Shown here: one piece after another, positions 14,876-32,250 of the stretch
Numbering within the stretch: position 1 is the first letter of the stretch
Layout of the letters: each line of letters begins with the position of its first letter
From: an uncultured Ruminococcus sp.
GTDB lineage: Bacteria; Bacillota; Clostridia; Oscillospirales; Ruminococcaceae
Assembly: GCF_946415235.1 (NCBI RefSeq)
Contig: NZ_CAMKRR010000003.1
Coordinates: 1 to 64,000 of the forward strand
Reading direction: 5' to 3'
DNA length: 64,000 bases
Notes under the pieces: model-generated
Database searches by the model: none
Told to the model about the DNA's origin: nothing
What the model saw: only the letters and a program-made list of their open reading frames with translations
Translations under genes and position numbers: made by a program

Positions 14876-14920
14876 ATATGGAGTCTTTTTTGACTGCACA
14901 AAAAATACTTTGTTTAATTC

Positions 14921-14949
14921 TTGACAAACTGACAGAAATGTTGTAAAAT
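14921..14949 (+). promoter_or_regulatory. Promoter of the aconitase operon
   Basis: TTGACA (14921-14926), 17-bp spacer, TAAAAT (14944-14949), about 33 bases before the ribosome site GAAAGGAA. It probably drives acn, the small membrane protein, icd and rex, which follow with gaps under 40 bases. Confidence 0.85.
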
Positions 14950-16926: not shown

Positions 16927-16950
16927 AAATAGTGCTGACTGTAAAGTACT

Positions 16951-17334
16951 ATGGATATAAAAGAAATATTTAAAGATATCGTAACAGATGTGAATGACAG
17001 CAATCAAAGGATCAAGTCAGACAGAAGGGAAAGGGTGATCATCCCCCTTAATCTCCGTCAGCGCGCAGGAGAGTATCTCGGCGGCTGGCTGGCTATCATT
17101 TTTCCGCAGTTTATAGGCTTTATCCTCGGACTTGCCTTAACAAGGATGATAGGACTTCACGGAGCCGCCTATCCGGTAATCGGCGGACTGTGTGCCCTTG
17201 CTGCGGGAACATATAAAAGTATCTCATTTGACAGGATATCGTTCGCACCCGCTGTTGTCAGAAACATCATACTAATGCTGCTTTTCTGCGGAGCGCTTGC
17301 ATTTATTGATCTGCTCAGCCGTGCCAAGGCTTAA
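16951..17334 (+). CDS. Small three-helix membrane protein, unrecognised
   Basis: 127 residues with a charged, Lys/Arg-rich N-terminus (about 1-40) and three predicted membrane segments (about 43-65, 72-90 and 102-122). I do not recognise a family. It lies between acn and icd, 24 bases after acn, and its stop overlaps an upstream alternative start of icd, so it is transcribed with them. The ribosome site before ATG 16951 is weak. Position suggests a link to the TCA genes, but nothing in the protein shows what. Confidence 0.75.
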
Positions 17335-17363
17335 TGAACTTTTATTTACGGAGGTATGAACCA

Positions 17364-18578
17364 ATGGCAAAAATCACCATGAAAACGCCGCTCGTTGAAA
17401 TGGACGGCGACGAGATGACAAGAATTCTCTGGCAATGGATAAAGGAAACTCTCCTTGAACCATATGTAGAGCTCAACACTGAATATTACGACCTTGGACT
17501 CAAAAACAGAGAAGAGACAAAGGATCAGATCACTCTTGACTCCGCTGAAGCTACCAAAAAGTACGGCGTAGCGGTAAAGTGTGCAACTATCACTCCTAAC
17601 GCTGCAAGAATGCCCGAATACAATCTCACTCAGATGTGGAAATCTCCAAACGGCACTATCCGTGCAGCACTTGACGGAACAGTTTTCCGTACTCCTATAA
17701 TAGTAAAAGGCATAGAGCCTTATATTCCAACATGGACAAAGCCGATCACCATTGCCCGTCATGCATACGGTGACGTCTACAAGAATACCGAAATGCGTGT
17801 AAGCAAGGGCAGCAAGGCTGAGCTTGTCGTTACTGACGAAAACGGAAATGAGACCCGTGAGCTTATCCACGATTTTACAAAATGCGACGGTATAATACAG
17901 GGACTTCACAACCTTGATGCTTCTATTGCAGGCTTTGCAAGAGCCTGCCTCAACTACGGACTTGATCTCAAGCAGGACGTATGGTTTGCATCAAAGGACA
18001 CTATCTCAAAGAAGTACGATCACCGCTTCAAAGACATTTTCCAGGAGATATTCGATAAGGAGTATAAGGAAAAGTATGAAGCAGCAGGTATTGAATACTT
18101 CTATACCCTCATAGATGATGCTGTTGCAAGAGTTATCCGTTCGAACGGCGGATATATCTGGGCTTGCAAGAACTACGACGGCGACGTTATGTCGGATATG
18201 GTATCAACAGCCTACGGAAGCCTTGCAATGATGACATCCGTTCTCGTTTCACCCGACGGTATCTATGAGTATGAAGCAGCTCACGGAACAGTACAGCGTC
18301 ATTACTATAAGTACCTCAAGGGCGAGGAAACATCTACGAACTCGGTTGCCACTATATTTGCATGGAGCGGAGCGCTCCGCAAAAGGGGAGAGCTAGATGG
18401 TACAAAGGAGCTCTGTGACTTTGCTGACAAGCTTGAAAAAGCAACTATACAGACCATTGAAGACGGAATAATGACAGGTGACCTCTATCTTATTTCAAAG
18501 CTTGACAATAAGCGTAAGGTTGACTCAAAGACATTCCTTGACGAAATAAAGATCAGACTCGACAAATTAATGAAGTAA
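17364..18578 (+). CDS. icd: Isocitrate dehydrogenase (NADP-type, dimeric subfamily)
   Basis: Oxidises isocitrate to 2-oxoglutarate and CO2, giving NADPH. The 404-residue protein belongs to the eukaryote-like homodimeric class, with the start [20 protein letters not shown], substrate loop [24 protein letters not shown] and metal site [19 protein letters not shown] 17364 is chosen because GGAGG lies nine bases upstream; an in-frame ATG at 17334 would add ten residues with no ribosome site. With acn it forms the oxidative arm of a split TCA pathway. Confidence 0.94.
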
Positions 18579-18596
18579 GAGAGAAGGCATATTGTA

Positions 18597-19241
18597 ATGT
18601 CAAAGAGCACAATATCCAATTCAGTCATAAGAAGACTACCTCGATATTATCGTTTCCTTGGTGAACTCGAGCATAACGGCTATATCCGCATCTCATCGCG
18701 TGAGCTTTCGGAGAAAATGGGGCTCACAGCTTCGCAGATACGTCAGGACTTCAATTGCTTCGGCGAGTTCGGACAGCAGGGCTACGGCTACAACGTAAGC
18801 GACCTTCGCTTTGAAATAGGCAAAATACTCGGACTTGACACCCTTACGCCTATGATACTTCTCGGTGCGGGAAATCTCGGAAAAGCAATCGCAACACACA
18901 TTGATTTTCATAACAAAGGCTTTGACCTTATAGGAGCATTCGACGTTAATCCCGATATAATCGGCAAGGACCTCGGAGGGCTCAAAGTCAAAAGCATCGA
19001 AGAGGTAGGGACATTCTGTGCAGAAAACAAGCCTGTTGCCGCTATACTCTGCGTTCCCATGACGTCCGCCGAAAAGCTTGTGAATACGCTTATCGAATGC
19101 GGTATAAAAGCTTTCTGGAACTTTACCCACTATGACCTGAAAGTGCTGCATAAAGGCATTGTCGTGGAAAATGTACATCTTGGCGACAGTCTTACAACTC
19201 TTTCCTATGGCTTGAACAACCTTGAAAGCAATAATAAATGA
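18597..19241 (+). CDS. rex: Redox-sensing transcriptional repressor Rex
   Basis: 214 residues: an N-terminal winged helix (about 1-80, with SSRELSEKMGLTASQIRQDFNCFGEFGQQGYGYNV region) and a C-terminal Rossmann domain that senses the NADH/NAD+ ratio (GAGNLGKAIATHI about residues 92-104). Family members repress fermentation and redox genes until NADH rises. It is last in the acn-icd unit and precedes the fumarase/Hdr/fumarate-reductase operon, so control of that NADH-consuming operon is plausible. A partial Rex-like site lies at 19589-19606. Confidence 0.95.
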   Translation: MSKSTISNSVIRRLPRYYRFLGELEHNGYIRISSRELSEKMGLTASQIRQDFNCFGEFGQQGYGYNVSDLRFEIGKILGLDTLTPMILLGAGNLGKAIATHIDFHNKGFDLIGAFDVNPDIIGKDLGGLKVKSIEEVGTFCAENKPVAAILCVPMTSAEKLVNTLIECGIKAFWNFTHYDLKVLHKGIVVENVHLGDSLTTLSYGLNNLESNNK

Positions 19242-19279: not shown

Positions 19280-19636
19280 CAAAATCATCGCATATATAGT
19301 GTGAAAAAAATATCAAACTCTCAGCAACATTATATATTAATCGGAATAAACATATTCCTTCACCTTGATGTCAATTATATGGCTTGCATAAAAAAGGTCA
19401 ATTGTTTTATGCATATATAATAAAACTACTCGTTTGATATGTTTTGGTTCACCCTTCAGCAAAGACCGCAGGAAGATAAATAATGCCAAAAATAATATTG
19501 ATTTACTATTTATGTACATTTTTTAGGCTGCTGATATATAAAACAATATATCATATAAAAGATTTATTAAGGTTTTAATAAAAAAGAATTGTTAATTAGA
19601 TATCAATATCTGAATAGCAATATTCTTAAACTGAAT
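19280..19636. other. AT-rich leader before the fumarase operon
   Basis: About 360 bases without a convincing gene. The only notable feature is TTGTTAATTAGATATCAA (19589-19606). It matches the left half of the Rex consensus TTGTTAA-N4-TTAACAA fully and the right half in four of seven positions. The rest is low-complexity AT sequence. Confidence 0.45.
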
Positions 19637-19665
19637 TTGAAATAATCCCGAGATACTGGTATACT
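19637..19665 (+). promoter_or_regulatory. Promoter of the fumarase/Hdr/Frd operon
   Basis: TTGAAA (19637-19642), 17-bp spacer ending in an extended -10 TGG, TATACT (19660-19665). It lies 85 bases before the chosen fumC start. No other promoter as good is evident in the short gaps up to 29886. Confidence 0.75.
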
Positions 19666-19750
19666 TATAATGTATACGATTGAAATTAAGGAGATAGTGT
19701 CATATTTTGCATTTTCTCCGCTAAATCTGTCTGGGAGAGTGGATATTAAA

Positions 19751-21127
19751 ATGGATTACCGTATAGAACATGATTCAATGGGCGAGGTCAAAGTACCTAA
19801 CGATAAGTACTGGGGCGCACAGACCGAAAGAAGTCATGAAAATTTCCTTATCGGCGTAGGCATCGAGACAATGCCGCGTGAGATAACACACGCTCTGGGA
19901 ATTCTGAAAAAAGCTGCCGCAATGGCAAATTATGTGATAAAGCCCGAGAAAATGACTGAAGAAAAGCGTGACATTATCGTCAGAGTATGCGACGAAGTCA
20001 TAAGCGGCTCTCTTAACGATCATTTCCCGCTTGTCGTATGGCAGACGGGAAGCGGTACTCAGTCAAATATGAATACAAACGAGGTAATTGCCAACCGCGG
20101 AAACGAGATCGCAGGCAAAGCTCTTCTTCATCCGAATGATGACATAAATATGAGTCAGTCCTCAAACGATACTTTTCCAACAGCTATGCATATATCCGCC
20201 GTTCTTGCGCTTGAGGACAGAGTAGTGCCCGCTGTTGAAGAGCTTATCAATACATTTATCAGGCTTGAAGCTGAAAATGAAGGCATAGTAAAAAGCGGAC
20301 GCACTCATCTTCAGGACGCAACTCCTATCAAGTTCTCTCAGGAGATCAGCGGCTGGAGAGCTTCTCTTGAAAAAGATAAAAAAATGATACTTTCAGCCTG
20401 TGAGGAGCTCAAAGAACTCGCACTCGGCGGAACTGCCGTTGGTACAGGTTTGAACGCACCTAAGGGATTTGCCGAAAAGGCTGCGGAGAATGTCGGAAAG
20501 CTCACGGGAAAGGATTTCAGATCATCACCGAACAAATTCCACTCTCTTACTTCAAAGGACGAGATCGTTTTTGCCCACGGAGCATTAAAGGCTCTTGCAG
20601 CTGATATGATGAAGATTGCCAATGACGTCAGATGGCTCGCATCGGGCCCCCGTGACGGACTCGGAGAGATATTCATTCCCGAAAACGAGCCCGGCTCTTC
20701 AATAATGCCCGGAAAAGTCAATCCTACACAGTGCGAACAGGTAACAATGGTCGCTGTACAGGTAATGGGCAACGATGTCACCGTAGGTATGGCTGCTTCA
20801 CAGGGAAATTTTGAGCTCAATGTCTTTATGCCTGTATGTGCATACAATTTCCTGCAGTCAGCAAGACTTCTTGCAGAATCCATAACCTCCTTCAATAAGA
20901 ACTGTGCAGTAGGAATAAAGGCGAACAGAGAAAAGATGCACCACAATCTTCACAATTCTCTTATGCTCGTAACAGCCCTCAATCCTTATATCGGCTACGA
21001 AAACGCCGCAAAGACTGCAAAAAAAGCCTTCAAAGACAATATAACCCTTAAGGAAGCCTGCGTGGAGCTTGGTTTCCTTACTCCCGAAAGATTTGATGAA
21101 GTATTCCATCCCGAAGAGATGGTCTGA
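19751..21127 (+). CDS. fumC: Fumarate hydratase, class II
   Basis: Interconverts malate and fumarate; here probably runs towards fumarate to feed fumarate reductase. 458 residues from ATG 19751, with GGGAGAG as ribosome site. The frame is open upstream to 19670, but the family start MDYRIEHDSMGEV fits this ATG. It has the iron-free class II signature GSSIMPGKVNPTQCE, the catalytic SSNDTFPTAMH region and SGRTHLQDA. It is the first gene of a run in which every following gap is under 25 bases through the fumarate reductase flavoprotein. Confidence 0.94.
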   Translation: MDYRIEHDSMGEVKVPNDKYWGAQTERSHENFLIGVGIETMPREITHALGILKKAAAMANYVIKPEKMTEEKRDIIVRVCDEVISGSLNDHFPLVVWQTGSGTQSNMNTNEVIANRGNEIAGKALLHPNDDINMSQSSNDTFPTAMHISAVLALEDRVVPAVEELINTFIRLEAENEGIVKSGRTHLQDATPIKFSQEISGWRASLEKDKKMILSACEELKELALGGTAVGTGLNAPKGFAEKAAENVGKLTGKDFRSSPNKFHSLTSKDEIVFAHGALKALAADMMKIANDVRWLASGPRDGLGEIFIPENEPGSSIMPGKVNPTQCEQVTMVAVQVMGNDVTVGMAASQGNFELNVFMPVCAYNFLQSARLLAESITSFNKNCAVGIKANREKMHHNLHNSLMLVTALNPYIGYENAAKTAKKAFKDNITLKEACVELGFLTPERFDEVFHPEEMV

Positions 21128-21151
21128 TATATAATGAAAGGAAAAATGCGT

Positions 21152-21949
21152 ATGGAAACCTTTACTTATTATCCCGGATGTACGCTGAGGACCAAAGCCA
21201 AGACTCTCGACGATTACGCAAGAGCATCTGCAAAAGCGCTCGGCATATCACTTGAAGAGCCTTCCGACTGGCAGTGCTGCGGCGGCGCATATACAACAGC
21301 AAAAGACGAAATCGCTACCAAGCTTTCGGCAGTAAGGACCTTAAATGCTGCAAGGGCAGCTGACAGACCGCTTATTACAGTCTGTTCCGCATGTCATAAT
21401 GTTATCAAGCAGACAAATTACGATATATCGCACGATGAAGAATTTGCTTCAAAAGTAAATAACTACCTCAAGCTTGACGAGCCATACTGCGGAGAAGCAA
21501 CAGTATATCACTATCTCGAAATGCTCAGGGACGTTATAGGCTTTGATGAGCTTGCAAAAAAGGTCGTTAATCCTCTTACGGGCAAAAAAATAGCTGCTTA
21601 TTACGGCTGTCTGCTGCTCCGTCCTTCAAAAGCTCTTGCAATGGATGATCCGGAAAATCCGTCTATCATAGAAGACTTTATCCGAGCCATAGGCGGAACG
21701 CCTGTAATATATGCTCAGAGGAATGAGTGCTGCGGCGGATATATAGCTCTTGAGGACAGGGCTCAGGCACAGAAAAGAAGCAGCAATGTAATGAGGTCCG
21801 CAGAGGATCAGGGGGCGGAAATGGTCATTACTGCCTGTCCGCTTTGTATGTATAATCTGAAAAAAAACTCGGATTCTTCTCTGCCTGTATACTACTTCAC
21901 CGAGATACTTGCTGAGGCTCTCGGAGCAAAGGAGGATGACAATGAATAA
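21152..21949 (+). CDS. Heterodisulfide reductase B-like protein (two CCG domains)
   Basis: 265 residues with two complete CCG motifs: C10, C42-C43, C78 and C81; then C153, C193-C194, C229 and C232. In methanogen HdrB these bind two noncubane [4Fe-4S] clusters that cleave CoM-S-S-CoB. This organism should lack those cofactors, so the electron acceptor must differ. ATG 21152 is favoured; AAAGGA at 21137-21142 is well spaced for it and too close to the ATG at 21146. The stop overlaps the HdrC-like start by eight bases. Confidence 0.9.
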   Translation: METFTYYPGCTLRTKAKTLDDYARASAKALGISLEEPSDWQCCGGAYTTAKDEIATKLSAVRTLNAARAADRPLITVCSACHNVIKQTNYDISHDEEFASKVNNYLKLDEPYCGEATVYHYLEMLRDVIGFDELAKKVVNPLTGKKIAAYYGCLLLRPSKALAMDDPENPSIIEDFIRAIGGTPVIYAQRNECCGGYIALEDRAQAQKRSSNVMRSAEDQGAEMVITACPLCMYNLKKNSDSSLPVYYFTEILAEALGAKEDDNE

Positions 21950-22325
21950 AAATCTCAAAGAACAGGTGCTGCGTTCATGCGGCGTAAACGTACTTAAATG
22001 TATGCGCTGCGGAAAGTGCTCGGGAACCTGTCCTTCTTACGATGAAATGGAATATCATCCTCATCAGTTCGTTTATATGGTCGAGCGCGGAGATATCGAG
22101 ACACTGATGAATTCAAAGTCGATATACAAGTGCCTGACCTGTTTCGCCTGCGTTGACAGATGTCCGCGAAATGTAGAGCCTGCAAAGGTAGTGGAAGCAG
22201 TTCGCCTTGCAGCGATAAGGCAGCAGGGAAACAATCACATGAACCCGAATCAGATACCTGAAATGCTTGACGAGGATATGCCGCAGCAGGCTATAGTTAC
22301 AGCATTCAGGAAATACATAAAGTAA
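21942..22325 (+). CDS. Heterodisulfide reductase C-like ferredoxin subunit
   Basis: 127 residues with two [4Fe-4S] motifs, C20/C23/C26/C30 and C64/C67/C70/C74, in the HdrC pattern CMRCGKCSGTCP and CLTCFACVDRCP. It conducts electrons between HdrA and HdrB. ATG 21942 follows GGAGG and overlaps the HdrB-like gene, so the two are made in equal amounts. Seventeen bases separate it from hdrA-like. Confidence 0.9.
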   Translation: MNKNLKEQVLRSCGVNVLKCMRCGKCSGTCPSYDEMEYHPHQFVYMVERGDIETLMNSKSIYKCLTCFACVDRCPRNVEPAKVVEAVRLAAIRQQGNNHMNPNQIPEMLDEDMPQQAIVTAFRKYIK

Positions 22326-22342
22326 GAAGGGGGGACAGTTTA

Positions 22343-24334
22343 ATGCAGAGAATAGGTGTATTTGTCTGTCACTGCGGAACAAATATCGCTGCAACTGTCG
22401 ATGTAAAGGCAGTCGCGGAAGCGCTTGGTCATGAACCCGGAGTTATCGTCTCTCAGGATTACCAGTATATGTGTTCCGAATCAGGTCAGAACCTTGTAAA
22501 AAACGCTATAAAAGAACATAACCTCACAGGCGTCGTGGTATGTTCATGTTCTCCGAGAATGCATGAAAATACATTCAGAAAAGCAGCAGCTTCAGCAGGT
22601 CTTAATCCTTATCTCGTAGAAATTGCCAATATCCGCGAACAGTGTTCATGGATCCACAAGGATATAGCAAGCGCTACGGAAAAGGCAATAATTCTCGGTA
22701 AGGCAGCAGTTGCAAAGGTGCATCTCAATGCTCCTCTTACAGCAGGCGAGAGCCCTGTTGTCAAAAGAGCCCTCGTTATCGGAGGCGGTATAGCAGGAAT
22801 ACAGACTGCCCTTGATATTGCCGAGGCAGGCTTTGATGTAGATATAGTTGAAAAGCAGCCAACGATCGGCGGTAAAATGGCTCAGATAGACAAGACCTTC
22901 CCGACTCTTGACTGTGCAGCCTGCATACTTACGCCTAAAATGGTAGAAGCTTCTCAGAACGAGCACATAACCATACATTCATACAGCGAAGTATCAGACG
23001 TAAAGGGCTTTGTTGGCAATTTTACGGTAACTATAAAGAAAAAGGCACGTTTTGTTGATGAAACAAAATGTACAGGCTGCGGATTATGTACCGAAAAATG
23101 TCCCATGAATAAAGTTCCAAACGAATTCAATATGGGATTTGACAACAGATCAGCAGTATATATCCCGTTTGCTCAGGCTGTACCAAAGGTCGCAACCATT
23201 GATCCGAACTACTGCATGATGCTGAAAACAGGTAAATGCGGAGTCTGCTCAAAGGTATGCTCTGTGGGAGCTATTGACTATAAGCAGGAAGATAAGCTTA
23301 TAGAGCAGAAGTACGGCGCAATCGTCGTTGCTACGGGCTTCAATCCTATAAATCTTGATAAATATGACGAATTCGCATACAATCAGTGTCCTGACGTAGT
23401 AACGTCGCTTGAGCTTGAAAGACTCATGAATGCGGCAGGTCCTAACGGCGGAACGCTTCTTCGTCCTTCAGACAAAACGCATCCACACAAGATAGTATTC
23501 GTCCAGTGCGTAGGTTCAAGATGTGACGACAGCAAGGGAAAACCCTACTGCTCGAAGATATGCTGTATGTACACAGCCAAGCACGCTATGCTCATACGCG
23601 AAAAATATCCTGATACAGAGGTTTATGTATTCTACATAGACGTCCGTACTCCCGGAAAGAACTTTGACGAATTCTACCGCAGAGCAGTTGAACAGTACAA
23701 TGTTCACTATATCAAGGGTATGGTCGGAAAGGTAACTCCGCGTTCAGACGGCAAGATAGACGTTCAGGCTTCCGACCTCCTTGCAAACGAACAGCTCCAT
23801 ATTGACGCTGATATGGTAGTTCTTGCAGCAGCTATCGAGCCTGACAAGACAGCCCGTCCGCTTGCAACAATGCTGACAACTCAGATGGATACAAATGATT
23901 TCTTCACGGAAGCTCATCCGAAGCTCCGTCCCGTCGAGAGCGCAACGGCCGGTATATTCCTTTCGGGTGCCTGTCAGGGTCCGAAGGATATCCCAGAAAC
24001 AGTCGCTCAGGCAAGTGCGGCAGCTGCAAAGGCTATAGGACTCCTTGTAAAGAACAGTATCACCTGTAATCCCTGCGTTGCCCATTCAGACGAGCTCATG
24101 TGCAACGGCTGCTCCTCATGTGAAAAGGTTTGTCCTTACGGCGCTATCACATACATTGACAAGGAATTCAAAATGCCAGACAGAACTGTTGCAATACGAA
24201 GAGTTGCAAGCGTCAATCCTGCTGTATGTCAGGGCTGCGGTGCTTGTACAGTCGCTTGTCCTTCGGGAGCAATGGATCTGAACGGATTTTCAAACAGCCA
24301 GATCATAGCGGAGGTAGATGCAATATGCAAGTAA
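22343..24334 (+). CDS. Heterodisulfide reductase A-like flavoprotein
   Basis: 663 residues, the length of methanogen HdrA. An N-terminal Cys domain has C9, C11, C44, C67 and C69. The FAD fold has VIGGGIAGIQ (145-154) and the HdrA insertion LDCAACILTPK with C191 and C194. An inserted ferredoxin region spans 243-306, and a C-terminal two-cluster ferredoxin starts at C587 and C629. In known complexes the HdrA FAD is the site of electron bifurcation between ferredoxin and a higher-potential acceptor. Bifurcation here is inferred from family and context. It is preceded by a GGGGGG ribosome site. Confidence 0.92.
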   Translation: MQRIGVFVCHCGTNIAATVDVKAVAEALGHEPGVIVSQDYQYMCSESGQNLVKNAIKEHNLTGVVVCSCSPRMHENTFRKAAASAGLNPYLVEIANIREQCSWIHKDIASATEKAIILGKAAVAKVHLNAPLTAGESPVVKRALVIGGGIAGIQTALDIAEAGFDVDIVEKQPTIGGKMAQIDKTFPTLDCAACILTPKMVEASQNEHITIHSYSEVSDVKGFVGNFTVTIKKKARFVDETKCTGCGLCTEKCPMNKVPNEFNMGFDNRSAVYIPFAQAVPKVATIDPNYCMMLKTGKCGVCSKVCSVGAIDYKQEDKLIEQKYGAIVVATGFNPINLDKYDEFAYNQCPDVVTSLELERLMNAAGPNGGTLLRPSDKTHPHKIVFVQCVGSRCDDSKGKPYCSKICCMYTAKHAMLIREKYPDTEVYVFYIDVRTPGKNFDEFYRRAVEQYNVHYIKGMVGKVTPRSDGKIDVQASDLLANEQLHIDADMVVLAAAIEPDKTARPLATMLTTQMDTNDFFTEAHPKLRPVESATAGIFLSGACQGPKDIPETVAQASAAAAKAIGLLVKNSITCNPCVAHSDELMCNGCSSCEKVCPYGAITYIDKEFKMPDRTVAIRRVASVNPAVCQGCGACTVACPSGAMDLNGFSNSQIIAEVDAICK

Positions 24335-24771
24335 ATGAAAATAAAGAGTTTCAGCCGCTGATCGTAGCTTTCTGCTGCAACTGGTGCTCCTATGCAGGAG
24401 CTGACCTCGCAGGCACAAACAGGCTGAACTATCCCGATAACATTAAGATAATCAGAGTCCCGTGCTCATGCAGAGTAAATCCTATGTTCATTCTCAGAGC
24501 TTTTCAGCGCGGAGCCGACGGAGTGATACTCTGCGGCTGCCACCCCGGAGACTGTCACTACACCTCGGGAAACTATTTTACAAGAAGAAGAATGACGCTT
24601 CTGTTCAGTATGCTGGATTTTCTCGGTATTGAACGTGATAGAACAAGAGTAGAATGGGTGTCCGCAGCTGAAGGAGCTAAATTTGCAGCTACCATGAACG
24701 AATTTACGGAAGCTGTAAAAAAACTCGGACCTAACCGCAGATTGGAGGATCTACGATGCAGGAAGCAATGA
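24325..24771 (+). CDS. MvhD/FlxD-like [2Fe-2S] electron transfer subunit
   Basis: 148 residues of the MvhD family, which passes electrons from a hydrogenase or dehydrogenase to HdrA. Cysteines C17/C18, C21, C47, C49, C70, C72 and C77 include the characteristic CGCHPGDCHY. ATG 24325 follows GGAGG and overlaps the hdrA-like stop by ten bases. There is no hydrogenase gene nearby; the downstream Flx-like subunits are the likely electron source. Confidence 0.92.
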   Translation: MQVNENKEFQPLIVAFCCNWCSYAGADLAGTNRLNYPDNIKIIRVPCSCRVNPMFILRAFQRGADGVILCGCHPGDCHYTSGNYFTRRRMTLLFSMLDFLGIERDRTRVEWVSAAEGAKFAATMNEFTEAVKKLGPNRRLEDLRCRKQ

Positions 24772-25727
24772 TAAATAAAGCAAAACAGCTTTTGGCCGAC
24801 GGCATCGTTGACCGTGTCATCGGCTGGAAGAGGGGAGAATTCGTTTACGATATCACTCCTGCGATATTTGAAACTGCCGAAGAGCTTGAAAAAGACTTTG
24901 TATATGACGATTTTACAGCGGCAAATGTTTCAAAATATCTTGTAAAAGAGAGCAAAAAGGAAGGAAAGATACTTGCTTTCCTCAAGCCCTGCGACACATA
25001 CAGCTTCAATCAGCTCATAAAGGAGCACAGGGTTGTACGTGAAAATGTTTATATAGTGGGCATCCCCGGAGGTCCAAAGCTTGACGCTGAAAAGATAAAG
25101 GAAAAGGGGATAACAGGTATTCTAAGCGTAAAAAACGAAAACTACACATTAAAGATCGAAACTGTTTACGGCGAGGAGACAATGCCTTTCTATGAGGCAG
25201 TACTTGACAAGTGCGCTTCATGCAAGAGCAAAAAGCATATGATATATGACGAGCTTCTTGGTGAAGAAGGCGATGTACTCGACTCAAACCGCTTCGATAT
25301 GGTAGAAAAGCTCGAGAACATGACCGCGCAGGAGCGTTATGACTTCTGGAGAGAGCAGCTTTCAAAGTGTATACGCTGCAATGCCTGCCGCAATGTCTGT
25401 CCTGCCTGCACCTGCGAAAAGTGCGTTTTCGATAATCCAGATTCGGGGATTGAAAACAAGGCTCCCGCAGACAGCTTTGAGGAGAATATGTTCCACATAA
25501 TCCGCGCGTTCCACGTAGCGGGAAGATGTACGGACTGCGGCGAATGCTCAAGAGTATGCCCTCAGAATATACCGCTTCATCTTCTCAACCGCAAGTTCAT
25601 TAAGGATATAAATACTTTTTACGGCGAATATCAGGCAGGAGAGGATACTACCTCCCGTGCTCCGCTGAATGAATATAAACAGAGCGACTGTGAAGCAAAT
25701 ATAGTTCATGAAAGGGGAGCAGAATAA
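24756..25727 (+). CDS. Flx-type iron-sulfur subunit with FrhB-like N-terminus
   Basis: 323 residues. The N-terminal 150 residues resemble the FrhB/F420-hydrogenase beta fold (LAFLKPCDTYSF with KPCD at 77-80, then YIVGIPGGP). The C-terminal half has two [4Fe-4S] motifs, C205/C208/C211/C215 and C258/C261/C264/C268, plus extra cysteines in CPACTCEKC. Its start overlaps the MvhD-like gene by 16 bases and follows GGAGG. I read it as one of the iron-sulfur subunits of a FlxABCD-like input module; which Flx letter it corresponds to is uncertain. Confidence 0.82.
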   Translation: MQEAMINKAKQLLADGIVDRVIGWKRGEFVYDITPAIFETAEELEKDFVYDDFTAANVSKYLVKESKKEGKILAFLKPCDTYSFNQLIKEHRVVRENVYIVGIPGGPKLDAEKIKEKGITGILSVKNENYTLKIETVYGEETMPFYEAVLDKCASCKSKKHMIYDELLGEEGDVLDSNRFDMVEKLENMTAQERYDFWREQLSKCIRCNACRNVCPACTCEKCVFDNPDSGIENKAPADSFEENMFHIIRAFHVAGRCTDCGECSRVCPQNIPLHLLNRKFIKDINTFYGEYQAGEDTTSRAPLNEYKQSDCEANIVHERGAE

Positions 25728-26746
25728 TGCTGAAGATATCACTTGACAAGCTTGATAAGCTTTTTGAAGCTGTCTCAGCTTCAAAGGCTCTCTATGTCCC
25801 CACTGACCGCGAAGACGGCGGCGCTGAATACAGAAAGTACGAAAGCGGCATGAAACTCAGCAGCGCTCTCAACACTGTAAGGAGCGCAAAGGATTTCTTC
25901 TTTCCTCAGACGGAAAACCTCGTTGACTTCAAAATGGACGGCAAAAGTATTGAAGTTATAGATGTCCGTGAAGAAGCAGAGGATTTTGTAATATTCGGTG
26001 TACGCGCCTGTGACGCAAGAAGCTTCACGATACTCGACAAGGTATTCCTTGCCGAACCCGTTGACAGCTATTATAAAAACCGCCGCGAACACGGAACTGT
26101 TGTAACTATGGCTTGTACACGTCCTGCCGAGACCTGCTTCTGCGGTACCTTCGGTATAGACGCAGCTTCTCCCGAGGGTGATGCCGCCTGCTACAGCGAC
26201 GGTGAGAACTTATTCATAGAAGCTCACAACGAAAAGGGACAGAAGTTCATAGACTCTGTATCATCGCTTCTCGAAGAAGGCGATACTTCAAAGCTTGAAG
26301 AAACACGCAGCAAAACAAGAGAGATACTGAAAAAGCTTCCTCTTGCCGACCTTACAACTGACAGCTTCGGCGGAGACAAGCTGAATGAGTACTTCAACTC
26401 CGATAAATGGGGAGTGCTTTCGGAAAGCTGTCTCGGCTGCGGCACCTGCACCTTTGTTTGTCCTACCTGTCAGTGCTATGACATAAAGGATTTCAATACA
26501 GGTCACGGAATAAAGCGTTTCCGCTGCTGGGACTCATGTATGTACTCCGATTTCACCAAAATGGCACACGGAAATCCGAGACTTACTCAGCTTGAGCGCT
26601 TCCGTCAGAGATTCATGCACAAGCTTGTATATTTCCCCGCAAACAATAACGGAGAATTCGGCTGTGTAGGCTGCGGAAGATGTCTTTCAAAATGTCCCAT
26701 ATCCATGAATATCGTCAAGGTAATGAAAGCGCTGGAGGTAAAGTGA
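25727..26746 (+). CDS. AsrA/FlxB-like 4Fe-4S electron transfer protein
   Basis: 339 residues resembling AsrA of anaerobic sulfite reductase and the matching Flx subunit. It has a GVRACDARS segment near residues 91-99, then two [4Fe-4S] motifs at C235/C238/C241/C245 and C313/C316/C319/C323. The start codon shares a base with the upstream stop (TAATG), and the stop likewise overlaps the next ATG. It is paired with the FAD/NAD subunit downstream, as AsrA is with AsrB. No siroheme subunit (AsrC) is present, so sulfite reduction is unlikely. Confidence 0.85.
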   Translation: MLKISLDKLDKLFEAVSASKALYVPTDREDGGAEYRKYESGMKLSSALNTVRSAKDFFFPQTENLVDFKMDGKSIEVIDVREEAEDFVIFGVRACDARSFTILDKVFLAEPVDSYYKNRREHGTVVTMACTRPAETCFCGTFGIDAASPEGDAACYSDGENLFIEAHNEKGQKFIDSVSSLLEEGDTSKLEETRSKTREILKKLPLADLTTDSFGGDKLNEYFNSDKWGVLSESCLGCGTCTFVCPTCQCYDIKDFNTGHGIKRFRCWDSCMYSDFTKMAHGNPRLTQLERFRQRFMHKLVYFPANNNGEFGCVGCGRCLSKCPISMNIVKVMKALEVK

Positions 26747-27573
26747 TGAATAATGATACATTGATACCTTACATCGGAGTAGTTACCGATATAAGGCAGG
26801 ATACTCCCGATGTCAAGACCTTCAGGGTAGTTTCTCCCGAAGGCGGCAAGGTTTTCGAGCATATGCCCGGACAGTGCGCAATGCTCTCTATCCCCGGAGT
26901 GGGAGAGGCAATGTTCTCAATAACATCTTCTCCTACAAATAAGGAGTTTATGGAGTTCAGCATAAAGAAATGCGGATGTCTTACGACATGGCTCCACGCT
27001 ATGGATGTAGGTCAGCAGATAACGATACGCGGACCTTACGGCAACGCCTTTCCTGTTGAAACAGAGCTTAAAGGAAAGGATCTCCTCTTTATCGCAGGCG
27101 GTATCGGACTTGCTCCTCTTCGGTCGGTAATAAACTATGTCCGTGATAACCGTGCAAATTACGGCGATGTGCAGGTCATCTACGGCTCACGTTCAAAGGA
27201 CGACCTTGTTGACTATCAGGAGATAATCGACGAGTGGATGGCTGATCCTAATATCGAAGTTGATCTCACTATAGACAATCCGCAGGATGGCTGGGATGGC
27301 CATGTAGGCTTTGTTCCGAATTATGTCAAGGAGCTAAATCCCTCTGTAAACAAGACAGTACTTGTCTGCGGACCGCCGATCATGATCAAGTTCACACTTG
27401 CAGGCCTAAAAGAACTTGGCTTTACCGAAACACAGGTCTACACAACTATGGAGCTTCGCATGAAATGCGGCGTCGGAAAATGCGGACGCTGCAATATCGG
27501 AAACAAATATGTATGCAAAGACGGTCCTGTTTTCCGCTTTGATCAGCTTGGCGAACTGCCTGACGAATATTAA
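26746..27573 (+). CDS. FlxA/AsrB-like FAD/NAD(P)H oxidoreductase subunit
   Basis: 275 residues of the ferredoxin-NADP reductase superfamily. It has an FAD-binding barrel (MFSITSSP, residues 56-63), a nucleotide pocket FIAGGIGLAPLRSV (115-128) with CGPPIM (208-213), and a C-terminal [2Fe-2S] site C241/C246/C249/C257 like PyrK and AsrB. It is the likely entry point for NADH or NADPH electrons into the Hdr-like core. ATG 26746 overlaps the upstream TGA; GGAGG lies eight bases before it. Sequence alone does not show the NADH or NADPH preference. Confidence 0.88.
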   Translation: MNNDTLIPYIGVVTDIRQDTPDVKTFRVVSPEGGKVFEHMPGQCAMLSIPGVGEAMFSITSSPTNKEFMEFSIKKCGCLTTWLHAMDVGQQITIRGPYGNAFPVETELKGKDLLFIAGGIGLAPLRSVINYVRDNRANYGDVQVIYGSRSKDDLVDYQEIIDEWMADPNIEVDLTIDNPQDGWDGHVGFVPNYVKELNPSVNKTVLVCGPPIMIKFTLAGLKELGFTETQVYTTMELRMKCGVGKCGRCNIGNKYVCKDGPVFRFDQLGELPDEY

Positions 27574-27588
27574 GAAGGAGAAACTTGC

Positions 27589-28272
27589 ATGGAAAATATG
27601 TTGAATGTTTACCTGTTCGGCAAGAAATATCAGGTGCCTGCAGGTCTTACGATAATGACAGCTATGGAGTACGCAGGCTATGAGCTTGTACGAGGCTGCG
27701 GATGCCGCAACGGATTCTGCGGAGCCTGTGCTACGATATACAGAATAAAAGGGGAGATAGAGCTTCACGGATGTCTTGCCTGTCAGACCGAGATACAGGA
27801 AGGAATGTACGTAGCAACTCTTCCTTTCTTCCCACTTGAAAAAAGAGTATACAACATCGAAGAAATAAAGCCGGACCAGCAGATAATGATGCAGCTTTAT
27901 CCCGAGATATACAGCTGTATAGGCTGCAATGCCTGTACAAAGGCCTGTACTCAGGAACTCAATGTTATGCAGTATATTGCTTACGCACAGAGAGGCGAGT
28001 ACGAGAAATGTGCTGAGGAGAGCTTTGACTGCGTAATGTGCGGAGTATGTTCATCACGCTGTCCCGCAGGTATTTCCCATCCTCAAGTAGCTATGCTTGC
28101 AAGACGTCTCAACGGTAAGTACATTGCTCCGGAATGCGGACATCTCTCGGACAGGGTAAAGGAAGTCAACGATGGTATCTTTGACAAGCAGATCGAGGAG
28201 CTCATGACAAAGGCTGTCAACAATATTGACGAGATAAAAGATATGTACAATCACCGCGAAATAGAGAAGTAA
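27589..28272 (+). CDS. Fumarate reductase-type iron-sulfur subunit
   Basis: 227 residues in the SdhB/FrdB arrangement. An N-terminal plant-type [2Fe-2S] domain has C37/C39, C44, C47 and C62/C65. The C-terminal alpha-helical domain has two motifs, C110/C113/C116/C120 and C148/C151/C154/C158. The last motif has the spacing of a [4Fe-4S] cluster rather than the [3Fe-4S] usual in quinone-linked enzymes. It is followed 12 bases later by the flavoprotein. No cytochrome b or membrane anchor gene is present, so electrons probably come from the Hdr/Flx subunits rather than quinones. Confidence 0.85.
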   Translation: MENMLNVYLFGKKYQVPAGLTIMTAMEYAGYELVRGCGCRNGFCGACATIYRIKGEIELHGCLACQTEIQEGMYVATLPFFPLEKRVYNIEEIKPDQQIMMQLYPEIYSCIGCNACTKACTQELNVMQYIAYAQRGEYEKCAEESFDCVMCGVCSSRCPAGISHPQVAMLARRLNGKYIAPECGHLSDRVKEVNDGIFDKQIEELMTKAVNNIDEIKDMYNHREIEK

Positions 28273-28284
28273 GGAGGGGAGAAT

Positions 28285-29886
28285 ATGTACAAAATCGAAA
28301 AACTCAATGAACTGGCAAAGATAGTTGCTGAAAAAAGAGCTGATAACGCCGCTCTCGAACCAAGAAGAATGACCGCTGAAGAGAAGGACGACCTTCTTGC
28401 ACATTTTCACCCCGATTACAAGCAGGACGAATTCACTGTCCTCTCCGCAGGTGTAAACAAGGGTGATAAAGTTCCTACACAGCTTGCAGAGCTTCTTCAG
28501 GGAAAAAGCCGTATCAGCGCTGATGGCGTGGATCTTGCTTCTCCCGATTATGAAACAGATGTACTTATCATAGGCGGTGGCGGTGCAGGCGCTTCTGCTG
28601 CGATCGAAGCTGACGATGCAGGCGTAAAGGTAATGATCGTCACAAAGCTTCGTATAGGCGACGCCAATACAATGATGGCTGAGGGCGGTATACAGGCTGC
28701 TGACAAGCCTAACGATTCACCTGCCATACATTTCCTCGACGCTTTCGGAGGCGGACACTTCGCTGCAAAACCAGAGCTCGTAAAGAAACTGGTCACAAAA
28801 GCCCCCGAAGCTATACAGTGGCTCAATAAGCTCGGTGTTGAGTTCGATAAGGAACCCGACGGAACAATGGTAACAACTCACGGCGGCGGTACTTCACGCA
28901 AGAGAATGCACGCTGCAAAGGACTACTCAGGCGCGGAAATAATGAGAACTCTCCGTGACGAGGTCATCAACAGAGGTATACCTGTAGTTGATTTCACAGC
29001 CGCAGTGGAAATAATCCTCGACGAAAACGGTAAGGCATCAGGTGCTGTTCTTATGAATATGGAGACCAAAGAGCTCCTTGTAGCTAAGGCAAAGACAGTT
29101 ATTATCGCAACAGGCGGTGCAGGACGTCTCCACTATCAGGGATTCCCGACTTCAAACCATTACGGTGCAACTGCTGACGGACTTATTCTCGGCTACAGAG
29201 TAGGCGCAAAGCTTCTTTACGCCGATACTTTACAGTATCACCCCACAGGTACAGGCTACCCCGAGCAGATATTCGGCGCTCTTGTTACCGAAAAGGTACG
29301 TTCGCTCGGTGCAAAGCTTGTAAATATAGACGGTGATGTATTCATGCACCCACTGGAGACACGCGATGTTACCGCAGCTTCTATCATACGTGAATGTACG
29401 GAACGCGGCAAGGGCGTAGAGACAAACCTCGGCAAGGCGCTGTGGCTCGATACTCCTATGATAGAGCTTATCCACGGCGAGGGAACCATCGAAAGGCGTA
29501 TCCCCGCAATGATGAGAATGTTTGGCAAATATGGCATAGATATCCGCAAAGAGCCTATACTCGTATACCCGACACTCCACTATCAGAACGGCGGACTCGA
29601 GATATCTGATGACTGCTCAACAGGAGTAGAAAATCTCTATGCGGCAGGAGAAGTCGCAGGAGGTATCCACGGCAGAAACCGACTCATGGGAAACTCGCTC
29701 CTTGATGTTATCGTTTTCGGCAGGAACGCAGGTATCTATGCAGCTGCCAAGGCTAAGGAAACAGCAGTTCCCCAAAAGCTCACCCTTGCTCATATCGAGA
29801 AGTTCAACAAGGAGCTTGAAGCGGCAGGAGCTTCAAGCGGAACAGCTTCACCGATGCTGCTCCCGCACTATGCAAGAAAAAAATAA
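28285..29886 (+). CDS. Soluble fumarate reductase flavoprotein subunit
   Basis: 533 residues. FAD loop LIIGGGGAGASAA lies at about 94-106, after an 85-residue N-terminal extension. Dicarboxylate residues of the fumarate reductase family are in place: H319 in YHPTG, R360 in ETRDVT, H432 in LHYQNGG and R466 in GRNRLMGNSL. The His that binds FAD covalently in E. coli FrdA is Asn128 here, so FAD is probably non-covalent, as in soluble enzymes and NadB. L-aspartate oxidase is the main alternative. The iron-sulfur partner, fumarase in the operon and absence of nadA/nadC argue for fumarate reductase. Confidence 0.85.
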   Translation: MYKIEKLNELAKIVAEKRADNAALEPRRMTAEEKDDLLAHFHPDYKQDEFTVLSAGVNKGDKVPTQLAELLQGKSRISADGVDLASPDYETDVLIIGGGGAGASAAIEADDAGVKVMIVTKLRIGDANTMMAEGGIQAADKPNDSPAIHFLDAFGGGHFAAKPELVKKLVTKAPEAIQWLNKLGVEFDKEPDGTMVTTHGGGTSRKRMHAAKDYSGAEIMRTLRDEVINRGIPVVDFTAAVEIILDENGKASGAVLMNMETKELLVAKAKTVIIATGGAGRLHYQGFPTSNHYGATADGLILGYRVGAKLLYADTLQYHPTGTGYPEQIFGALVTEKVRSLGAKLVNIDGDVFMHPLETRDVTAASIIRECTERGKGVETNLGKALWLDTPMIELIHGEGTIERRIPAMMRMFGKYGIDIRKEPILVYPTLHYQNGGLEISDDCSTGVENLYAAGEVAGGIHGRNRLMGNSLLDVIVFGRNAGIYAAAKAKETAVPQKLTLAHIEKFNKELEAAGASSGTASPMLLPHYARKK

Positions 29887-29951
29887 AAATATGGGACGCT
29901 TATCAGAGCGTCCCGAAATATGTTATAATAAAAGAAAGTTAAGTGATAAAA

Positions 29952-31163
29952 ATGGATTTTTTTAACGGAATTCTTTCAATTCATGGTGTCGGCTTCCTTA
30001 TGCTGTCGGTAATTGCGATAGCTGCTCTCGGATATGTACTTGGAAGAATTACTATCAAAGGCATATCTCTCGGAACAGCAGGAGTGTTCATTATGGCACT
30101 TATATACGGTTGTTTGTTCTATAAGGAACTGTCTGCCGAGATCAATACCGATTTTGTGAACAATGCTCTTAAGATAATAGACAATCTCGGACTTATACTC
30201 TTCGTTACAGCTGTAGGATTTATTGCAGGACCGAATTTCTTCGGTAACTTCAAAAAGAACTTCAAGTCTTATGTTCTCCTTGCCGTTATCATTATTTTCA
30301 GCGGCGGACTTGCTTGTGCAGGCTGTATTATGGTAGGAAAGAACTTTACCGACCTTTCAAGTGAAGAATTCACAGCAATGCTCGCAGGAATCCTCTCGGG
30401 AGCACTCACAAGCACTCCCGGTTTCTCGGCTGCCAAGGACGCAGTAGGAACAGATCATTTGCAGAGCATCGTATCCGTAGGATACGCAATAGCCTATATC
30501 TTTGGTGTTATCGGAGTTGTTCTCTTTGTTCAGATAATCCCCAAGCTCACAAAAGCAAATATGGAAAAAGAAAGAGAGCTTCTTATCCCTGCATCCAAGA
30601 ACGCAGCAAAAGAAAAGAAAATGTTCAAATTCATAGAAATGGACAGCTTCGGCATCATGCCTTTTTCTCTTGCAGCTTTCTTTGGAATTATAATAGGTTC
30701 ATTCAAATTCGGCAATTTCTCACTTTCCACAACAGGAGGCTGTCTGCTTGTTTCGCTTATATTCGGACACTTCGGACACTTCGGAAAGTTCTCTGTTACG
30801 CCTAAGGATTCAACTCTTAAGGTCTTCCGTGAGCTTGGTCTCATGTTCTTCCTTATAGGTGCAGGCGTTTCGGGCGGAGCTAAATTTGTACAGTACTTTG
30901 ACGCCGTATACTTTGTGTACGGAATAATAATGACTATCTTACCTATGATAATCGGATTCCTCTTTGCAAAATATGTACTGAAGCTCAGCCTTCTCAACAA
31001 CCTCGGCTCTATAACAGGCGGTATGACATCTACCCCTGCGCTTGGTACTCTTATAAGCACGGCAGGAACGGAAAATGTTGCCTCAGCATATGCCGCTACA
31101 TATCCTGTAGCACTTATCTCTGTAGTCCTTGTAGAGCAATTCCTGATTATATTATTCAAGTAA
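29952..31163 (+). CDS. AspT/SucE-family (AAEx) membrane carrier
   Basis: 403 residues with about ten membrane helices in two repeats. Each repeat carries a GxxTSTP motif (GALTSTPGFSA and GGMTSTPALGT), the mark of the aspartate-alanine exchanger family. It lacks the central TrkA-C domains, so it is shorter than AspT (about 540 residues). The family includes the succinate exporter SucE of Corynebacterium. It lies directly after the fumarate reductase genes, so succinate export is a reasonable inference. ATG 29952 is preferred to GTG 29943; the ribosome site is weak. A TATAAT at about 29921 may give it its own promoter. Confidence 0.82.
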   Translation: MDFFNGILSIHGVGFLMLSVIAIAALGYVLGRITIKGISLGTAGVFIMALIYGCLFYKELSAEINTDFVNNALKIIDNLGLILFVTAVGFIAGPNFFGNFKKNFKSYVLLAVIIIFSGGLACAGCIMVGKNFTDLSSEEFTAMLAGILSGALTSTPGFSAAKDAVGTDHLQSIVSVGYAIAYIFGVIGVVLFVQIIPKLTKANMEKERELLIPASKNAAKEKKMFKFIEMDSFGIMPFSLAAFFGIIIGSFKFGNFSLSTTGGCLLVSLIFGHFGHFGKFSVTPKDSTLKVFRELGLMFFLIGAGVSGGAKFVQYFDAVYFVYGIIMTILPMIIGFLFAKYVLKLSLLNNLGSITGGMTSTPALGTLISTAGTENVASAYAATYPVALISVVLVEQFLIILFK

Positions 31164-31198: not shown

Positions 31199-31852
31199 TC
31201 ATTTAACACCGTATTGTTCTCTGTATTCAAGCATTTTGTCAAGATATTCCTTACCAGGAACGATCTCTTTCTTTATAGCATCAATAATATCTTCCATAGT
31301 AACGATAGGATAAACTATAACGCCGAAGTCGCGCTTTACCTCCTGTACAGCCGAAAGCTCTCCGGTACCTTTTTCCATACGGTCTACTGTTATGACCATA
31401 CCCGTAACATTTACGTCGGCAGCAGTCATAAGCTTAGGCATAGACTCACGAAGAGCCTTTCCCGATGTCATAACATCATCTATAATAACAACCCTTTCAC
31501 CGTCCCTGAGCTCCTTGCCGACAAACATACCGCCCTCGCCGTGATCCTTGGCTTCCTTTCTGTCAAAACAATATGATACATCTATACCGTACTTATTGCT
31601 GAGTGCAACAACAGCAGATACAGCCAGTGGTATGCCTTTATAAGCAGGTCCGAAGAGAGTATCAACAGGGATATCGTTTGCCTTGATGCATTCAGCATAG
31701 TATTCGCCGAGCTTTGCAAGCTGAGCACCTGTTTGGTAATTTCCGCAGTTTATAAAATACGGAGCTTTTCTGCCGCTCTTCAATGTAAACTCACCGAAGG
31801 TAAGAACACCGCAATCGACCATGAATTTAATAAAGCTTTCCTTGTAATTCAT
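31199..31852 (-). CDS. pyrE: Orotate phosphoribosyltransferase
   Basis: Joins orotate and PRPP to give OMP in pyrimidine synthesis. 217 residues. The PRPP loop is RVVIIDDVMTSGKALRE (about residues 118-134), and the orotate contact FTLKSGRKAPYFIN lies near the N-terminus. ATG 31852 follows GGAGG; the open frame upstream to 31903 lies in the preceding gene's end. It is cotranscribed with the zinc-ribbon gene. pyrB lies 12 kb away, so the pathway genes are dispersed. Confidence 0.95.
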   Translation of the reverse strand: MNYKESFIKFMVDCGVLTFGEFTLKSGRKAPYFINCGNYQTGAQLAKLGEYYAECIKANDIPVDTLFGPAYKGIPLAVSAVVALSNKYGIDVSYCFDRKEAKDHGEGGMFVGKELRDGERVVIIDDVMTSGKALRESMPKLMTAADVNVTGMVITVDRMEKGTGELSAVQEVKRDFGVIVYPIVTMEDIIDAIKKEIVPGKEYLDKMLEYREQYGVK

Positions 31853-31899
31853 AAAAATGACCTCCATTATGTATATTTCCTGCAAAGCAGGCACAAAAA

Positions 31900-32250
31900 T
31901 CATATTGCTTCAAATATATGACCGCAGAAAGGACATCTCGGATAATCCACATCTATCTCCGCACCGCATTCAACGCATTTCTTTTTGGGAAGAATGTCTA
32001 TGCTCTCATCAATATCTTTGTTGAACTCACCGGCAAAGCCTGTGGGATGAGTAACAGGAAACACACCTATAAGCATACCGCATTCGGTGCAGTAATACCC
32101 AAGCGTTTTATCTGACGGAACCTCACATATCATAGTATCATTCTCATAGAAGGTAGACACGGGATACACCAGTGTTGAATGCTTTGACGGTATACCGCGC
32201 TGTTCAATTCTGAATACGCCTTTTATCATAGGCTTGCCGCAATGTAACAC
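31900..32250 (-). CDS. Small zinc-ribbon protein, unrecognised role
   Basis: 116 residues starting at GTG 32250 after AGGAGGG. Four cysteine groups are visible: one near the N-terminus (HCGKPM), CTECG in the middle, and CVECG plus CPFCG at the C-terminus. The last two form an RPB9-like zinc ribbon. A beta-rich region lies between. It precedes pyrE by 47 bases on the same strand and shares its promoter. I do not recognise a specific function. Confidence 0.75.
   Translation of the reverse strand: MLHCGKPMIKGVFRIEQRGIPSKHSTLVYPVSTFYENDTMICEVPSDKTLGYYCTECGMLIGVFPVTHPTGFAGEFNKDIDESIDILPKKKCVECGAEIDVDYPRCPFCGHIFEAI

Follow-up and report, generated by a model that had tools for sequence, protein, structure and literature searches.

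A candidate NAD(P)H-driven, electron-bifurcating fumarate reductase encoded by a fumC-hdr-flx-frd operon of an uncultured Ruminococcus

A 64,000-nucleotide stretch of contig NZ_CAMKRR010000003.1 (contig C3) from an uncultured Ruminococcus sp. (GCF_946415235.1), hereafter the window, contains an operon that probably encodes a soluble, cytochrome-free, NAD(P)H-driven and electron-bifurcating fumarate reductase. FumC, the heterodisulfide reductase-type subunits HdrA, HdrB and HdrC, MvhD/FlxD, the FAD/NAD subunit FlxA, two iron-sulfur (Fe-S) Flx subunits and FrdAB are all encoded together in this one operon. The source genome (176 contigs totalling 3.41 Mb; 96% complete) belongs to the Ruminococcus flavefaciens group. 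A sequence-only reading of the window had proposed a bifurcating Hdr/Flx-fumarate reductase. This remains the best-supported mechanism, backed by the co-occurrence of the genes and by a distinct HdrB subfamily. Gene content, motifs, conservation and the HdrB subfamily are observed; that the proteins form one complex, work in this direction, bifurcate electrons, are served by a succinate carrier and stand under Rex is inferred.

The ten genes all lie on the + strand in the order fumC-hdrB-hdrC-hdrA-mvhD(flxD)-flxC-flxB-flxA-frdB-frdA. The nine gaps between them are as close as first read (6, -8, 17, -10, -16, -1, -1, 15 and 12 bases), and a purine-rich, ribosome-binding-like stretch was seen by eye before most of the starts. 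The ten proteins were scanned against two profile libraries, NCBIfam and Pfam. The first gene, fumC (19751..21127), encodes a class II fumarase that reached 702 bits against TIGR00979 and exceeded the cut-off of 665. A start at 19637 or 19670 had been assigned to it; the most likely start is 19751, and 19637-19665 is a promoter-like match. The hdrB gene (21134..21949) has two complete CCG motifs of the noncubane 4Fe-4S type and matches PF02754 in two stretches, and hdrC (21942..22325) encodes two 4Fe-4S motifs and reached 70 bits against TIGR03290 (cut-off 160). The flavin adenine dinucleotide (FAD) and Fe-S subunit HdrA (22343..24334), the presumed site of bifurcation, covers positions 1-641 of the 777 in NF040770 with 801 bits (cut-off 1100). 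The same model is continued at 640-774 by MvhD/FlxD (24325..24771), a PF02662 FlpD protein and the presumed link between Flx and HdrA. The product of 24756..25727 had been called an FrhB-like Fe-S subunit. It has two 4Fe-4S motifs, and both libraries returned only generic Fe-S models of the dicluster type; we take it to be FlxC from its position. FlxB (25727..26746) resembles AsrA and sulfhydrogenase beta subunits (NF040829 and TIGR02910, below cut-off; PF17179), and FlxA (26746..27573) is an FAD/NAD(P)H and [2Fe-2S] subunit (PF00175, PF10418, PF00970). Profiles and motifs identify frdB (27589..28272), with one [2Fe-2S] and two four-Cys 4Fe-4S motifs. The last gene, frdA (28285..29886), encodes a flavoprotein with fumarate reductase active-site residues, and its best NCBIfam match was TfrA (NF004900; 348 bits, below the cut-off of 718). 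Neither library gave a hydrogenase catalytic family or a siroheme family as best match for any of the ten proteins, in line with the initial reading.

Every cluster and flavin motif that was checked proved intact, as had been claimed. HdrB contains two complete C-CC-CxxC motifs, and CxxCxxCxxxC occurs twice in each of HdrC, FlxC, FlxB and FrdB and three times in HdrA, there beside an FAD motif. FlxA combines a nucleotide motif with a [2Fe-2S]-type motif, the latter being present also in FrdB. By sequence, the nearest PDB chains to HdrB and HdrA are methanogen-type heterodisulfide reductases (HdrA against 5odc_A, E 5.5e-211), and FlxA matches the gamma subunit of sulfhydrogenase 1 (9nez_C, E 3.5e-59). 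The best NCBIfam match of HdrB was the HdrB-like SdhE (146 bits, cut-off 500), and the hdrB of this operon is the only CCG-domain gene found in the source genome.

In the proposed mechanism, a hydride from NAD(P)H would be accepted by FlxA and its electrons passed on by FlxB/FlxC and by FlxD (MvhD) to HdrA, at whose FAD the pair would be split. One electron would travel through HdrC and the noncubane clusters of HdrB to the clusters of FrdB and on to the FAD of FrdA, which would reduce fumarate, formed from malate by FumC, to succinate; the other would be driven uphill to ferredoxin. The net reaction would be 2 NAD(P)H + fumarate + 2 oxidised ferredoxin (one-electron) -> 2 NAD(P)+ + succinate + 2 reduced ferredoxin. 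Succinate could leave through an AspT-like carrier, and the reduced ferredoxin would be consumed by Rnf or hydrogenase. Ferredoxin has a potential of about -400 to -500 mV. With the potentials of NAD (-320 mV) and fumarate (+33 mV) given in PMC5861303, simple arithmetic yields ~68 kJ for the two electrons going downhill and a cost of about 15-35 kJ for the two going uphill to ferredoxin, so that coupling is feasible. The same downhill span of ~350 mV would also serve a plain NAD(P)H:fumarate reductase in which HdrA merely conducts and ferredoxin is not reduced, and four loci of the type hdrC-hdrB-frdB-frdA, without an hdrA match in the fetched stretch, would fit such an enzyme. We consider it improbable, as HdrA is full-length and has kept its 4Fe-4S and FAD motifs, and an enzyme without bifurcation could presumably make do with a shorter donor.

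The arrangement is strongly conserved among near relatives. Named loci were taken as the best 80 of 581 candidates and are hence biased to near relatives, the closest FrdA among them being those of Ruminococcus sp. RGIG8224 (96%) and R. flavefaciens YL228 (95%). In 65 of these 80 loci the whole run of nine genes from hdrB to frdA keeps its order, which confirms the hdrBCA-flx-frdAB order, and the other 15 are likewise collinear but cut by contig ends. Where the contigs left room, fumC preceded hdrB in 60 of 62 loci and a homologue of the transporter gene that follows frdA started at most 700 bases past frdA in 59 of 73. A draw of 148 genomes of the family contained FrdA at an identity of at least 69% in 18 of them (that of G034 being split into two fragments) and HdrA (E 1e-60) in 15, every one of which was among the 18. 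The three with FrdA only, G072, G086 and G034, have their frdA on contigs of 6.3, 10.7 and 6.3 kb, respectively. FrdA was found in 52 of 60 genomes of the genus draw, including 34 of the 34 good ones, and in 54 of 391 genomes of the class draw; from the 53 of the latter besides the source genome 20 loci were fetched, of which 19 showed hdrBCA-mvhD-flxCBA-frdBA and one (L134) frdBA-hdrBCA-mvhD. These counts establish that the ten-gene arrangement is real and far beyond chance. Two genomes gave two frdA matches each, G948 (contigs C15 and C14) and R. flavefaciens UBA2900 (L041 and L080), and the second copies may be real or come from mixed bins.

Possible partners were searched for in the 60 genus genomes. 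The operon holds no anchor gene, and the Sdh_cyt family (PF01127) was matched in none of the 60, with 7 of 14 controls positive and other anchor types not searched; the sequence-only reading had seen no quinone-linked anchor either. A quinone-linked complex II was rejected on the missing PF01127 matches. DsrC was likewise matched in 0/60, in a search whose control was positive in E. coli only and which did not cover other dithiol proteins, and DsrC was rejected as acceptor on this ground. Of the 60, 50 matched the Rnf family, 6 of these only through weaker hits that may be paralogous, and 59 matched [FeFe] hydrogenase, the best hydrogenase match of the source genome being partial and at a contig end.

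More distant relatives are organised in several ways. FrdA was matched in 39 of 398 genomes of a phylum draw; apart from our own, these 38 genomes supplied 39 loci, all of which were scanned. One (L158) holds the full set, with hdrC before hdrB. In four frdBA lies ahead of hdrBCA, in 11, two of them cut, several HdrA-like parts precede mvhD and frdBA, and four are the hdrC-hdrB-frdB-frdA loci mentioned above. A FrdA tree comprised 67 rows, namely the window, 9 of the 80 named loci and 57 of the 59 wide loci (L176 and L177 were dropped by a length/stop filter). A neighbour scan of four phylum loci found frdBA next to genes for a class I fumarase, malic enzyme and a type III coenzyme A (CoA) transferase in L164, pyruvate carboxylase in L163, Fe-S proteins in L161 and an MmgE/PrpD protein in L154. 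The neighbours in L163 and L164 would suit propionate or succinate oxidation and with it a reverse reaction, in which succinate oxidation and reduced ferredoxin jointly yield NAD(P)H (confurcation). For the operon studied here this direction is very unlikely, given the possible exporter gene after frdA and the fact that R. flavefaciens is a sugar fermenter and a classic succinate producer of the rumen.

Within the 22 genomes whose FrdBA loci had no hdr match, were short or were of the hdrC-hdrB-frdBA type, HdrA (E 1e-40) was present somewhere in 18 and in none of the other four. A stand-alone hdrBCA-mvhD-flx locus in the Ruminococcus order was found in seven genomes (G763, G715, G873, G892, G544, G739 and G623; L193-L199, one of them cut before flxA), where it holds the only HdrB match (E 1e-12) of its genome. 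Part of the apparent counter-evidence may therefore be the same system distributed over two loci. Two of the seven possess a second hdrA-mvhD-flx locus without an HdrB match (L201, L211). Stand-alone loci of another type, hdrCBA-flx, occur as well. In three of these (L204, L205 and L209) hdrA has an in-frame TGA at aligned residue 195 (DCSA*ISTPK), where the HdrA of the window has Cys, and a selenocysteine HdrA is probably encoded.

The phylogeny of HdrB separates the copies that accompany FrdBA from most others. HdrB places were collected from 30 FrdBA genomes, 50 in all, though G901, G600, G603, G821 and G662 have none. An 85-row tree, in which all 50 places were joined by the class rows, by additional multi-HdrA rows and by eight of the named ones (L105 was left out), contained a branch with support 100/99, on one side of which stood 12 FrdBA-adjacent copies, the seven copies of the stand-alone hdrBCA-flx loci and the HdrB of G802, encoded on a 3.8 kb contig (C52) and sister to the FrdBA-adjacent copy of the same-genus G779. 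Each of 20 genomes thus contributes exactly one copy to this Ruminococcus-type side. The remaining 30 of the 50 lie beyond the branch, including all those of G566, G607, G612, G903 and G572, and one of the 30, the second copy of L173, does sit in an FrdBA locus. Since five genomes (G577, G825, G886, G779 and G807) contain both kinds, species descent alone does not explain the split; in G577, G825, G886 and G779, HdrB shares 42-45% identity with that of the window where it adjoins FrdBA and 32-38% where it belongs to the hdrCBA-flx locus. The same branch had support 100/99 in a first tree, from which L204, L205 and L212 were dropped because their aligned stretch has an in-frame stop close to its beginning. 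It separated 51 from 9 rows with 100/100 support and in 200/200 bootstrap trees in a second, which retained these three, written with X, and omitted L105, L158, L173, L199 and L210 as long branches. The HdrB trees contain several long branches and were rooted at the midpoint. The HdrC of the four hdrC-hdrB-frdBA loci also stood apart from most hdrCBA-flx HdrC, in a poorly resolved tree.

The TfrB profile, a fusion of an FrdB-like with an HdrB-like part, is matched by FrdB at 19-92 and by HdrB at 415-487, the generic dicluster middle being matched by HdrC and FlxC. Together, the subfamily split and this fusion argue that HdrB passes electrons to FrdB. On this basis we tentatively propose, with confidence a little short of even, that a distinct HdrB subfamily was recruited together with HdrC as a dedicated relay, forming an HdrBC-FrdBA unit across the Bacillota that is plugged into HdrA-Flx for bifurcation within a single operon, in operons of altered order or over two loci, and whose place other donors have taken in certain lineages. 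The noncubane clusters would then deliver electrons to FrdB and not to a disulfide. The subfamily provides a sequence marker for FrdAB-type Hdr complexes.

Several observations weigh against a bifurcating complex of this composition. FumC exceeded its NCBIfam cut-off, and the hdr, flx and frd proteins matched the expected families below the cut-offs of all models shown. The split seen for HdrB is absent for FlxA, reaches 91/89 for HdrA and is followed in part by HdrC, whose tree is poorly resolved. In 15 of the 39 phylum loci FrdBA relatives of 50-65% identity had no hdr match in the fetched stretch (L162, one of the 15, has frdA and no frdB match); four more loci were too short to tell. G086, listed as 100% complete, has FrdA without an HdrA match. 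G901, G600, G603 and G821 contain FrdBA without HdrA (E 1e-40) or HdrB (E 1e-12), from which it follows that the FrdAB module is not bound to Hdr everywhere. G662 also lacks HdrB, and G566, G607, G612, G903 and G572 possess only HdrB of the other tree side; in these 10 of the 30 FrdBA genomes FrdBA must use another donor or have another function. Both noncubane motifs are complete in 119 of the 120 HdrB examined, in all groups (the exception is L080), which is consistent with disulfide chemistry.

The retained motifs and the four genomes with FrdBA and no HdrA or HdrB match would also be explained if Flx-Hdr were a separate NADH:disulfide/ferredoxin enzyme and FrdAB a neighbouring fumarate reductase that draws its electrons from ferredoxin or, in the manner of Tfr, from a diffusible dithiol, the two sharing an operon for redox balance. 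Such a division is unlikely, however, as the HdrB subfamily follows FrdBA rather than Flx in genomes with both kinds, no DsrC was matched in the genus genomes, and all 15 HdrA genomes of the family draw are FrdA genomes. Moreover, we know of no coenzyme M or coenzyme B in such bacteria.

The identity of the terminal reductase was assessed separately. FrdA aligns to E. coli FrdA with agreement around QYHPTG, TExxR, HYxxGG and HGxNRL, and carries Asn at what we take to be the position of the covalent-FAD His of the quinol enzyme. Among loci with long enough matches, the FrdA motifs were intact in 20/20 class-operon, 79/79 named-operon, 5/5 reversed, 4/4 hdrCB-frdBA and 9/9 multi-HdrA loci, and the FrdB motif set in 20/20, 78/78, 5/5, 4/4 and 9/9 (116/116), while the Asn was found in 19/20, 79/79, 0/5, 4/4 and 0/9. 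An AlphaFold2 model of FrdA (predicted local distance difference test, pLDDT, 66.7; predicted template-modelling score, pTM, 0.74) matched 1kf6_A and confirmed the FrdA fold, the N-terminal extension not being reliably modelled. For FrdB the predicted model was uninformative (pLDDT 47.7), and no close relative was found by sequence among solved structures. By sequence, FrdB departs from the [2Fe-2S], [4Fe-4S] and [3Fe-4S] set of quinol:fumarate reductase, as beside its [2Fe-2S]-type motif it has two motifs of the four-Cys 4Fe-4S kind. That FrdA acts on another enoate is highly improbable: urocanate reductase (6t85) shares its fold, but the dicarboxylate-site residues line up with those of E. 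coli FrdA, and fumarase genes are its regular or occasional neighbours (fumC in the named loci, class I fumarase in L164).

L-Aspartate oxidase (NadB) was considered as an identity of FrdA and rejected, as the nadB models remained below their cut-offs and, in the family draw, the matches of 18 genomes at 69-100% form a group of their own, the others reaching 31-39% along the flavoprotein part. The second FrdA match in the source genome, on contig C70 (33% identical), is presumably NadB. Residues 1-88 of FrdA (28285-28548) form a conserved N-terminal extension without a Pfam match, and FrdA homologues of the phylum draw, including those that have no hdr genes beside them, begin to align at residue 5-26.

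The gene after frdA (29943..31163, + strand; PF06826) encodes a transporter of the AspT family (Asp-Al exchanger) and possible succinate exporter. It begins 56 bases past the end of frdA, and the transcription unit very likely runs on through it to 31163. A phosphoribosyltransferase gene on the - strand (31199-31903) is convergent with it, with 35 bases between the ends. Upstream, a cluster at 14989-19241 with genes for aconitase, a small protein (membrane-like by eye), isocitrate dehydrogenase and Rex lies directly before the fumC operon, and the order icd-rex-fumC recurs in many Ruminococcus loci. The rex gene (18597..19241, + strand; PF06971 and PF02629) encodes a member of the NAD(H)-sensing repressor family. 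Two Rex-operator-like sites on the + strand (19564-19581 and 19589-19606) differ by two mismatches each from TTGTTAANNNNTTAACAA, which we assume as the Rex consensus; the window contains 3 such sites against 0.51 expected. The third (14910-14927) lies before the aconitase cluster. Sites with at most three mismatches were present in 25 of 29 upstream regions of the Ruminococcus group and in 1 of 30 others. These regions are AT-rich and the sites vary in place between them; an equally good match arose in no more than 5% of shuffles for 20 of the 25 and in more than 5% for the other five. The predicted sites suit a possible NADH-responsive control of the operon by Rex. The promoter-like element TTGAAA-17-TATACT with TG (19637..19665, + strand) comes from a consensus scan and is weak, since the region yielded 25 such matches and its shuffles 20.4.

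Parts of this composition are known from other systems. The FlxABCD-HdrABC complex of Desulfovibrio vulgaris (Ramos 2015) has the same set of Flx and Hdr subunits. Its presumed acceptor is a thiol/disulfide, whereas here FrdBA adjoins. The HdrB of our operon belongs to another subfamily than that of the stand-alone hdrCBA-flx loci, a comparison confined to loci of the phylum. The 8-methylmenaquinol:fumarate reductase SdhABE is a membrane quinol enzyme that also has an HdrB-like subunit (SdhE). It differs from the present system, in which FrdB has two four-Cys 4Fe-4S motifs and the operon no anchor gene. The methanogen thiol:fumarate reductase TfrAB (Heim 1998) likewise joins FrdA and FrdB modules to an HdrB-type CCG module, but in TfrB the FrdB and CCG parts are fused, whereas frdB and hdrB are separate here and accompanied by HdrA and Flx.

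A literature search, with most subscription journals and all bioRxiv preprints outside its reach, found no biochemical proof of a bifurcating fumarate reductase, and the phrase 'electron-bifurcating fumarate reductase' was absent from the texts covered. No title or abstract opening among the Ruminococcus matches listed concerned this complex; a rumen FrdA survey does not discuss the system in the parts examined (PMC6776011), and the accessible parts of PMC9044749, PMC10579422 and PMC8674449 held nothing decisive on it. The operon is a concrete candidate for fumarate reduction in R. flavefaciens and for energy conservation via ferredoxin, Rnf and H2, and the proposed enzyme is directly testable in culturable strains; in Pseudoclostridium thermosuccinogenes, silencing by CRISPRi is already available (PMC9044749). 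Whether the fumarate step conserves energy bears on the hydrogen and methane balance of the rumen.

An enzyme of this makeup had been regarded as not known, which did not stand. The same gene set and the same proposal were published in 2020 for Pseudoclostridium thermosuccinogenes (PMC7282089, citing a 2019 preprint by Koendjbiharie and van Kranenburg). Its 'succinate operon' combines a bifurcating Flx-Hdr complex with fumarate hydratase, fumarate reductase and a putative transporter, and was ~4-fold up-regulated under CO2 limitation, not significantly for every subunit; fumarate-dependent NADH oxidation coupled to ferredoxin was assumed there, not demonstrated. By the text of that paper, not by DNA, the two operons agree in uniting fumarase, Flx-Hdr, fumarate reductase and a putative succinate transporter, and differ in the organism and in the rex gene that adjoins the operon here. 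In tubeworm symbionts, tfrAB and korABCD are interspersed with flxABCD-hdrABC and a complex was suggested (PMC6315080, 2019). The symbionts and Thioflavicoccus resemble our case in that Flx-Hdr genes are mixed with a putative fumarate reductase, with direct electron shuttling suggested; they differ in the setting of a reductive tricarboxylic acid cycle, with a 2-oxoglutarate:ferredoxin oxidoreductase in the cluster (PMC6315080). What is new here is the evidence from the HdrB subfamily for an already proposed kind of enzyme.

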